This document shows positions 18,129 through 43,342 of a DNA stretch of 64,000 nt, piece after piece. Made by a program: the position numbers and the translations under genes. Origin of the DNA: Pseudomonadota bacterium (GTDB taxonomy: Bacteria; Pseudomonadota; Gammaproteobacteria; Steroidobacterales; Woeseiaceae). Positions within the stretch are counted from its first letter, which is position 1, and each line of letters opens with the position of its first letter. Location of the stretch: contig JADFNS010000003.1 in NCBI GenBank assembly GCA_022563255.1, positions 62,001 through 126,000 on the forward strand, written 5' to 3'. The notes below the pieces were generated by a model. The model searched no databases, was not told the origin of the DNA, and worked only from the letters and a program-made list of their open reading frames with translations.

Positions 18129-18200
18129 ATACGAAATTTCATTTTTTACGATATTTCGTATATAACCTTACGATTTTCCGTAATTTACGGAATTTCGTAA
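18129..18200. promoter_or_regulatory. Array of palindromic sites (three TTACG-N6-CGTAA plus one degenerate), likely upstream activator sites
   Basis: TTACGATATTTCGTAT 18146-18161; TTACGATTTTCCGTAA 18168-18183; TTACGGAATTTCGTAA 18185-18200; degenerate ATACGAAATTTCATTT 18129-18144. Confidence 0.7.
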
Positions 18201-18246
18201 CACCGTGATTTACGCTAATCGGTTGTTTTTATTGACTTTACGATGT

Positions 18247-18263
18247 TGGCACGGCTTGTGCAA
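18247..18263 (+). promoter_or_regulatory. Sigma-54 (-24/-12) promoter
   Basis: tGGCACGGCTTGTGCaa: GG at 18248-18249, GC at 18260-18261, exact 10-nt spacing, consensus TGGCACG at -24. Confidence 0.8.
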
Positions 18264-18339
18264 TAGGAAACATTGAAAGCAAACTAATTTGCAGCGCGAC
18301 CACCACCGAACGCGTTGCCAGAGACACAGGACAAAATCC

Positions 18340-18477
18340 ATGAAAAGCAATTACATCGAAAACGGCCTCGCCCTCCTGGGCGCATTGGTCATTCTTATCG
18401 GCGTTTCCGCTGCGGCGACCACCGCGCTTGCCAGTGACGCGAGCACCGTTGAAATTTACAGCTCTGCCCAAAAGTAA
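18340..18477 (+). CDS. 45-aa small protein with signal peptide/TM-like segment
   Basis: MKSNYIENGLALLGALVILIGVSAAATTALASDASTVEIYSSAQK; AGGA Shine-Dalgarno 8 nt before the ATG; downstream of the sigma-54 promoter. Confidence 0.65.
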   Translation: MKSNYIENGLALLGALVILIGVSAAATTALASDASTVEIYSSAQK

Positions 18478-18493
18478 GACAGTAAGTACCCCG

Positions 18494-18693
18494 GCGGCAT
18501 GCCGCTCAGACTGCTCTCCCCCCTGACAGTCTGGCTGGCGGCCCCGGGAATTGCCGGATCGGAATCCGGTGAAAAACGGACCAGGAAGGTCCGGCGGCCC
18601 CCCTGCCGTTATCTTTAAGGCGCCGGAGATCGCTCCATGTCGGAACGGCCCGCTGATTCGATTTCTGAATTCAGTTCTTCGGCGCTTTTTTTT
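18494..18693 (+). ncRNA. Multi-hairpin structured RNA or 3' UTR ending in a Rho-independent terminator
   Basis: Consecutive stems: GCGGCATGCCGC; CAGACTG/CAGTCTG; CCGGAT/ATCCGG; CGGACC/GGTCCG; then GCGCCGGAGA/TCTTCGGCGC followed by T8. Confidence 0.5.
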
Positions 18694-18701
18694 CGCCCGG
18701 A

Positions 18702-31702: not shown

Positions 31703-33055
31703 ATGAAGCCACAAGGATTTCGTGATACGGGCAGATTTGTTCACCGTCCGGCACGTCCTGGTATCTGCACACCGACAAATCTCGCACACCTTACGCGTTG
31801 CCTCAGCCACGACGCGAACATCGCTTTACCGGTACGCCCCCGGGGCGCCGGAACCGCAGTAACAGACTGTAGCGTGAGCACGTCGGGAACGGTCATCGAT
31901 ATGACCCGCTTCGATCGGATCATCCACATTGACACGCACGAACAAACCGTAACCGCGGAAGCCGGTGTGCGATTGGGCGCACTGGTTGCCGCACTGGCGG
32001 CGAAAGATCTGGAACTTGTCGGCAGCTTTGATCAAACCGAGCGAACGCTCGGCGGCGCGCTCGCCGCGCCGTGTATGGGGCCTGGAATCGGCGACCATAC
32101 CTCATTTCTCTCCGCCCAGGTCATCGGCATGAAATTGGTGACTGCCGGCGGGAAAGTCATGAGAGTCTCGGAAACGCAAAAGCATCTATTGGGCGCAATG
32201 CGCCTGAGCTATGGAATGCTGGGCGTTATTTACGAGGTGACATTACGAGTACGGTCGATATCGACATTTTCTGCCAATCACCGCAGCATGAACATTGAGA
32301 CCTTTGCGCAGGTCTGCGACCGACTGGCAAGCGGCAATGTTGGGCTCAAGTTTTACCTCCTGCCTTATCGAGATCAGGTGTACCTGGATTTGCGTCATTA
32401 CGAAAATTCGCAGCACAGTACGTTTCCGATTCCCTGGAGGATAAAGAATTGGGGCGAGAGCACAGTGCTCCCCAATGTATTCAAATCACTAAATCGTGTA
32501 TTGCCCATACCGTCTGTTCGCTATCGTTTGATCGATTCGATATCGGCAGCAACGCATGGACTTGTGAATTCGAGACTCGTAAGAAATGGCAATAACGTCA
32601 CGGCAAGCGGGCAGCGTCGCCGCAGAAAATCACGCGGACTTCTATATTCGACCTGGTGTTTTCCGGCCTCTGACTTTTCGTTGGTAGTAAAAGCGTACGC
32701 TAATTTCTGCCAGGAAACCTTTCTGCGCACGACTTACCGTTGTGATATGCCCGCGGTCGGTCACCGCATTGCACGGGATTGCTCTGCATTGCTGTCGCCC
32801 TCATTTGACGAGCCGCTGATTGCCCTGCAATCCGTTTCGACACAGCGTCGTGGATGGGATGGTTTTGTTCTCGACCTTTCCGAATTCGCCGAAAACTGGG
32901 GCGGCATTCCGTTGTTCAATCAGACGCTGGCCACGCGTGCAGACTATGTGTCCCAAACCTATGCCGGCAGGATGGAGCTCTTTCGCAAGATTCGCCGCCA
33001 ACTGGACCCCAGGAAGCGCTTGCTGAACCCGTTTCTCGCCCGCCACTTCGAGTAA
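31703..33055 (+). CDS. FAD-linked oxidoreductase (D-arabinono-1,4-lactone oxidase family)
   Basis: FAD_binding_4-like GAGTAVTDCSVSTSGTVIDMTRFDRIIHID; C-terminal LDPRKRLLNPFLARHF. Confidence 0.82.
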   Translation: MKPQGFRDTGRFVHRPARPGICTPTNLAHLTRCLSHDANIALPVRPRGAGTAVTDCSVSTSGTVIDMTRFDRIIHIDTHEQTVTAEAGVRLGALVAALAAKDLELVGSFDQTERTLGGALAAPCMGPGIGDHTSFLSAQVIGMKLVTAGGKVMRVSETQKHLLGAMRLSYGMLGVIYEVTLRVRSISTFSANHRSMNIETFAQVCDRLASGNVGLKFYLLPYRDQVYLDLRHYENSQHSTFPIPWRIKNWGESTVLPNVFKSLNRVLPIPSVRYRLIDSISAATHGLVNSRLVRNGNNVTASGQRRRRKSRGLLYSTWCFPASDFSLVVKAYANFCQETFLRTTYRCDMPAVGHRIARDCSALLSPSFDEPLIALQSVSTQRRGWDGFVLDLSEFAENWGGIPLFNQTLATRADYVSQTYAGRMELFRKIRRQLDPRKRLLNPFLARHFE

Positions 33056-42581: not shown

Positions 42582-43342
42582 ATGATTCGCACAGCTCGAC
42601 CAGACCATGTAGGCAGGGCTATCGCGTGGCTTTTATTAGGCGTGTCGAGCGGACTCGTTTTGGATTTGTGCGCCAAGGAATTACTGCGGACCTATTCGCT
42701 GCAGGAATTTATTCTGATCCGCAGCGGTATTGCGATAAGCATTTTTATCGCGCTGGCATACGCTACGCTCTCTGCTCGCGATCGGCGCCATATTCAGATT
42801 CTTTTACGGACTGTCAAAAATGCCATTGGTCAATACATTGACGCTGGACTGCCGTCGTCGTCGGTTTTATCGGCACGCTGACCATACTGCAGCCGGGGAG
42901 CGGCGACTTCTCGCTGGCATCGGTTGCAGTTTTGATCGCTGCGTTTTGTTACGCGAGTCATGCCCTCACCGCGCGACATCTTTCGGCGACGGAATCCACG
43001 CTGGCGCTCACCGTGTACGTCGTTACCGGTCCATTCATCGTTTCTGCCGCAGGGATCAGCGACGTCAGCTGGCTGACGCCAGATGCTAAGGGCTGGGCAT
43101 TGCTCACGGGCGCGGGCGTGTGCTCCGTCATCGCCTGGGTTGGCATCACCAACGGCTACAGGGGCGCGCCACCGGCGCTTCTGGCGCCGCTCGAATACAC
43201 GGCTCTGATCGGCGGCGCGATCGCCGATTAGCTGATTTGGGGCGAAGTACCGGACCGCCGGGTTATCGTCGGTGCTGCAACAATCATCGCGTCAGGTTTG
43301 TACGTTGTGTACCAGGAGACCGGCCCCAAAAACGTGCGCTAG
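42582..43342 (+). pseudogene. Decayed EamA/DMT-family transporter
   Basis: Homologous-looking segments spread over three frames (…LLRT; MPLVNTLTL; RWTAVVVGFIGTLTILQPG…EYTALIGGAIAD) and an in-frame TAG at 43229-43231 before LIWGEVPDRRVIVGAATIIASGLYVVYQE. Confidence 0.8.

Follow-up and report, generated by a model that had tools for sequence, protein, structure and literature searches.

The locus examined here raises two linked questions: what is expressed from a sigma-54 promoter that lies beyond an array of palindromes, and which protein reads that array. The window, by which we mean the whole 64,000-nucleotide stretch of DNA that was analyzed, comes from a member of the Woeseiaceae, a family known almost entirely from metagenome-assembled genomes. 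We consider it probable that a bacterial enhancer-binding protein (bEBP) acts at three sites to drive sigma-54-dependent expression of a small exported peptide together with an antisense RNA that bears C-rich loops. The genes on either side are those for the bEBP and a dienelactone hydrolase, and the features of the locus are collected in Table 1.

Direct reading and a pattern search of the window identified four 16-bp elements, namely the TTACG-N6-CGTAA palindromes and the degenerate copy that an earlier, sequence-only reading had described. Their centers are 17, 22, and 17 bp apart, with the ATG of the minus-strand PAS-PAS-AAA+-Fis gene (18117) on one side of the array and the -24/-12 element on the other, both as that reading had it. 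The 2.45-Mb assembly has two exact matches to TTACG-N6-CGTAA, both of them in the array; the reversed pattern, used as a control, has five per strand. The stricter form TTACGRWWWWYCGTAA, with at most one mismatch, has three matches genome-wide, which are the three good sites of the array; two-mismatch matches elsewhere in the genome are scattered singles. The genome scan proposed in the sequence-only reading recovered the array sites but returned no matches in favor of a wider regulon. A genome-wide regulon was therefore set aside, there being no other match to the stricter form within one mismatch, and the palindrome is a single-locus motif rather than a regulon motif.

Table 1. Features of the locus, with positions numbered from the first letter of the window.
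Feature	Position	Strand	Basis or remark
PAS-PAS-AAA+(sigma-54 activation)-Fis enhancer-binding protein, 601 aa	16312-18117	minus	Pfam domains
Extra degenerate palindrome ATACGAAATTTCATTT	18129-18144	.	Outside the conserved three-site unit
Conserved activator site 1 (predicted) TTACGATATTTCGTAT	18146-18161	.	1 mismatch; -102 from GG
Conserved activator site 2 (predicted) TTACGATTTTCCGTAA	18168-18183	.	0 mismatches; -80 from GG
Conserved activator site 3 (predicted) TTACGGAATTTCGTAA	18185-18200	.	0 mismatches; -63 from GG
IHF-like site TAATCGGTTGTTT (YAAN4TTGATW-like)	18216-18228	plus	~32 bp upstream of GG
Sigma-54 promoter TTGGCACGGCTTGTGCA	18246-18262	plus	-24 GG at 18248, -12 GC at 18260
45-aa signal-peptide-like ORF MKSNYIENGLALLGALVILIGVSAAATTALASDASTVEIYSSAQK	18340-18477	plus	Matches in relatives
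Structured RNA core, four helices, two with C-rich apical loops	18489-18609	plus	Covariance model R1, 104.9 bits
Hairpin 1: stem CAGACTG/CAGTCTG, loop CUCUCCCCCCUGA	18507-18533	plus	Fold and covariation
Hairpin 3: CGGACC-AGGAA-GGUCCG, strongly covarying stem	18577-18593	plus	Covariation
Hairpin 4: GCGGC/GCCGU, C-rich loop (CCCCCU)	18594-18609	plus	Fold and covariation
Intrinsic terminator: long stem that starts GCGCCG and closes CGGCGC, then T8	18617-18693	plus	

Relatives were gathered through the regulator protein, and the geometry of the array was compared in 26 Woeseiaceae-type loci. In all 26, the distances of three sites from the -24 GG are exactly -102, -80, and -63. Their mean palindrome matches are 8.8, 8.8, and 9.4 of 10 letters, respectively, where the median for all offsets is 2.4. 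Alignment across relatives had been named beforehand as the comparison on which the reading of the palindromes should stand or fall, and it found both sequence and geometry kept in every one of these loci. Given the exact shared offsets, the conserved unit is one of three sites, 22 and 17 bp apart, corresponding to the window sites that begin at 18146, 18168, and 18185. This geometry rules out the arrangement in two pairs that had been suggested from the window. The leader is 17 bp longer in the window and in one relative (L070), and the degenerate copy at 18129 falls within that stretch, adding one 17-bp unit to the array. In more remote homologues (L085-L100), the promoter is retained, generally with two or three degraded sites.

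Downstream of the array, 42 of 42 loci share the same TTGGCA and, in the -12 element, the same TGC; rpoN is present in the genome. An IHF-like site was found at two adjacent positions in 33 of 42 loci, with a score of 8-9 in 27 of 42 compared with ~10% of shuffles. Together, the sites, IHF-like element, and promoter make up a standard enhancer-IHF-promoter layout, and transcription would be expected to start near 18273.

The first candidate product of this promoter is the small ORF, for which 32 genomes in the genus set gave matches and neither Pfam nor NCBIfam gave a family. Comparison of copies gave a mean pS of 0.61 against a pN of 0.18, and such strong purifying selection leaves the protein as a possible main product. 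The same enhancer and promoter would then serve to express an exported small protein, with the 3' RNA merely stabilizing and terminating its mRNA. Retention of a signal-peptide-like N terminus by nearly all relatives fits this alternative as well as the coding constraint does. Against it, the protein drifts, its length (30 to about 110 aa) and sequence varying widely among relatives, and the distant loci L093 and L094 have no recognizable ORF after the promoter yet still carry C-rich hairpins. The RNA core, moreover, with four conserved helices and loops of fixed sequence, is more than a terminator. On balance, we regard the small protein as an unlikely sole function of the transcript, and prefer the reading in which peptide and RNA are both products.

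Two further motifs were seen among the small proteins. A TonB-box-like motif (EEIVVYG, EEITVHE) follows directly on the signal peptide in L085 and L097, where it is strong, and is weaker or marginal in L096, L098, L090, and L100; it was not seen in the Woeseiaceae small proteins. Separately, several of the distant small proteins (L085, L086, L088, L090, and L096-L100) have Arg-Gly directly before the stop, their sequences being otherwise unrelated.

After the stop codon of the small ORF come a GC-rich structured RNA and then the terminator. Compared with shuffled sequence, the fold had a z of -3.6 for 18478-18697 and -3.8 for the whole transcript. Across 19 aligned copies, the four helices are backed by covariation or near-invariance, with 46 cells of compensatory double change against 16 in shuffled and at most 18 in slid controls, and covariation of 0.316 against 0.176. 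The covariance model R1 found one copy adjoining the locus in 35 of 37 genomes of the genus, one genome having a second match on another contig. Genomes from elsewhere in the order, 23 in all, gave no match, and in a sample of 274 genomes spanning the class the model matched only this genome and a second member of the genus. Two extra R1 matches within the window (43152-43271 and 31972-32072) were treated as chance because they are without C-runs. A search of Rfam returned no family at significance, the weak matches to P11, suhB, and two miRNA families lying far below gathering scores, and the RNA, which is absent from Rfam, is a previously undescribed family. The terminator stem (18620-18685 in the window) is unusually long in many relatives, where it includes an internal CCGTGTCGG-type hairpin and a GAATTCAG segment, and is shorter in L064, L067, and L117.

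What stays constant in this RNA is that its apical loops hold a run of C, which reads UCUCCCCC in hairpin 1 and, in hairpin 4, CCCCC(C). Across 43 loci there are 85 C-runs at least five letters long, compared with 29.8 expected from shuffles, and 7 G5 runs; the mean unpaired probability of these C-runs is 0.91, against 0.30 for other C. The distant loci L093 and L094 retain a CUCCCCC hairpin and the terminator, with stem changes that preserve pairing. Alternatively, the RNA could titrate a protein without base pairing, either CsrA/RsmA through GGA loops or, through the C-rich loops, some other RNA-binding protein. The loops of hairpins 2 and 3 (18555-18593) in the window are indeed CGGA and AGGA, and GGA occurs in one or both of these loops in most Woeseiaceae copies. 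In many copies, however, GGA is replaced by ATGA, GAAA, or AAGA, whereas even distant homologues retain the C-rich loops, and we consider titration of a protein quite improbable. Base pairing through the C-rich loops is the action we prefer for this RNA.

Loops of this kind would be expected to find partners in G-rich ribosome-binding sites (RBSs), and for these we sampled genes of the genus with GGGGGAGA-N2-9-ATG (sites L182-L270), calling receptors with a plug-domain HMM. Among genes with the GGGGGAGA RBS, 12 of 44 encode TonB-dependent receptors; among those with AAGGAGA-N2-9-ATG, none of 53 does (P = 3e-5). In this comparison, sampling was non-random, orthologues are repeated and so not independent, and the control genes were drawn in part from other genomes than the test genes. 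Outside the genus, in 23 genomes of the order, 3 of 29 genes with the GGGGGAGA RBS encode TonB receptors, so a G-rich RBS on receptor genes is not confined to genomes that bear the RNA. In the genome of the window itself, GGGG precedes the likely ATG within 24 bases for 3 of 14 plug-domain proteins (L306, L307, and L308), which is no more than suggestive. Because the signal also appears, weakly, outside the genus, TonB-dependent receptor mRNAs are only a lead as candidate targets of the RNA. A search of the same genome for GGGGGAG-ATG gave a single ORF, for a secreted alpha/beta hydrolase-like protein, and was too weak to name targets. If true, the receptor link would explain how many receptors could be turned down simultaneously in these bacteria. 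The broader proposal, that a one-target sigma-54 switch yields a dual-function transcript, with an exported micropeptide and a C-rich-loop RNA repressing translation of TonB-dependent receptors as a class, and so controls nutrient uptake at the envelope in a way specific to Woeseiaceae and related gammaproteobacteria, is in our estimate doubtful.

We then turn to the protein that reads the array. Three features by which a bEBP is recognized were found: an AAA+ sigma-54 activation domain, a Fis-type C-terminal domain, and conserved palindromes upstream of a -24/-12 promoter. The regulator matched Pfam PF00158 at 4.7e-71, along with PAS_9/PAS_4 and AAA_lid_14, and its translation reads GAYTGA, a variant of the GAFTGA-type loop. 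HTH_8 scored 20.5 bits, just below the cut-off of 22, and the recognition helix is conserved across relatives. In the wider regulator family, a recognition helix of the form xDR (or xDK) goes with TTACGR-type palindromes in 33 of 33 loci and xYR with TCACAA-type palindromes, in a similar array, in 22 of 24, counts that were taken by reading printed rows with the last few family loci left out, and a correlation that largely amounts to a difference between two clades. The proposal that the palindrome is the motif of the adjacent regulator gains from this tracking, from the conservation of the array, and from the invariant -24/-12 promoter downstream, and the adjacent regulator is a well-supported candidate for binding at these sites. 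That another DNA-binding protein, such as a local repressor, occupies the palindromes while the activator binds elsewhere is highly improbable, given the enhancer-like fixed spacing to the -24 element, the covariation of palindrome type with the recognition helix of the activator, and a search of the intergenic region in which no second palindrome class was found; no observation in its favor turned up. In most relatives, ~10 bp separate the end of site 1 from the ATG of the regulator, so that autoregulation, judged by site position, is plausible.

In the model we favor, the PAS-PAS-AAA+-Fis activator would dock as dimers on the three enhancer sites, an IHF-type bend would bring it to the promoter, and a PAS signal would lead it to open the sigma-54 promoter. 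The only target that the motif points to in the genome is the divergent transcript of ~420 nt, which would yield a small exported peptide and end in the structured RNA. The apical loops (UCUCCCCC and CCCCCC) would most likely pair with G-rich ribosome-binding sites, possibly including those of TonB-dependent receptor mRNAs, and so repress translation in the manner of sX13 and RepG (HPnc5490). The RNA is best read as an sX13/RepG-like one under the probable control of a PAS-bEBP and sigma-54.

Several parts of this model have known counterparts. GlmY/GlmZ, Qrr, CrcZ, and NrsZ are, as a group, sigma-54-dependent. They show regulators of the bEBP family acting through RNA (PMC7602753), but differ from the RNA described here in structure and in their modes of pairing or protein binding, and their regulators have larger regulons. 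The sX13 RNA of Xanthomonas has loops with 4C/5C motifs and needs G-rich motifs in its target mRNAs, and its loop 3, UCCCCCU, is identical to the center of the HPnc5490 loop of Helicobacter pylori (PMC3771888). Our RNA resembles sX13 and RepG (HPnc5490) in its stable stems, its C-rich apical loops including UCCCCC, and the G-rich partners expected near start codons (PMC3771888). Unlike sX13, which sits downstream of polA, it follows a small ORF that is under a sigma-54 promoter with a dedicated activator, and it has no Rfam match; its location does not agree with that of sX13, the flanking genes here being those for the bEBP and dienelactone hydrolase and not polA.

For the array, the closest parallel is NorR-norVW of Escherichia coli, where three enhancer sites likewise separate the gene for the regulator from the sigma-54 target; in NorR, all three are essential and scaffold the oligomer (PMC2941729). 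NorR is also the best NCBIfam match of this regulator, but at 365.9 bits against a cut-off of 476. The palindrome differs, and the target here is a small mRNA/RNA rather than norVW. We did not name the regulator NorR, its score being under the equivalog cut-off and its sensor PAS-PAS and not GAF. In the literature searched, Woeseia and sigma-54 were not named together in any paper, and nothing pertinent to small RNAs of the Woeseiaceae turned up. RNA-acting bEBP regulators and C-rich-loop RNAs are each already known, but in the sources searched there appears to be no description of a C-rich-loop RNA combined, in this lineage, with a conserved micro-ORF and an activator that has a single target.

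The locus thus offers a complete control unit that is open to testing, comprising a sensor protein, a binding code, a promoter, and an RNA family, and the xDR/TTACGR and xYR/TCACAA classes provide a test of how the Fis-type helices of enhancer-binding proteins read DNA. Among members of the wider regulator family in Nitrosomonas and other proteobacterial metagenome-assembled genomes (L101-L129), a divergent sigma-54 promoter is accompanied by a TCACAAN4TTGTGA-type array. By eye, the genes downstream look like those for GST, AhpD-like, NTF2-like, isochorismatase-like, glutaredoxin, and cupin proteins, a set that hints at a signal of redox or electrophile type.
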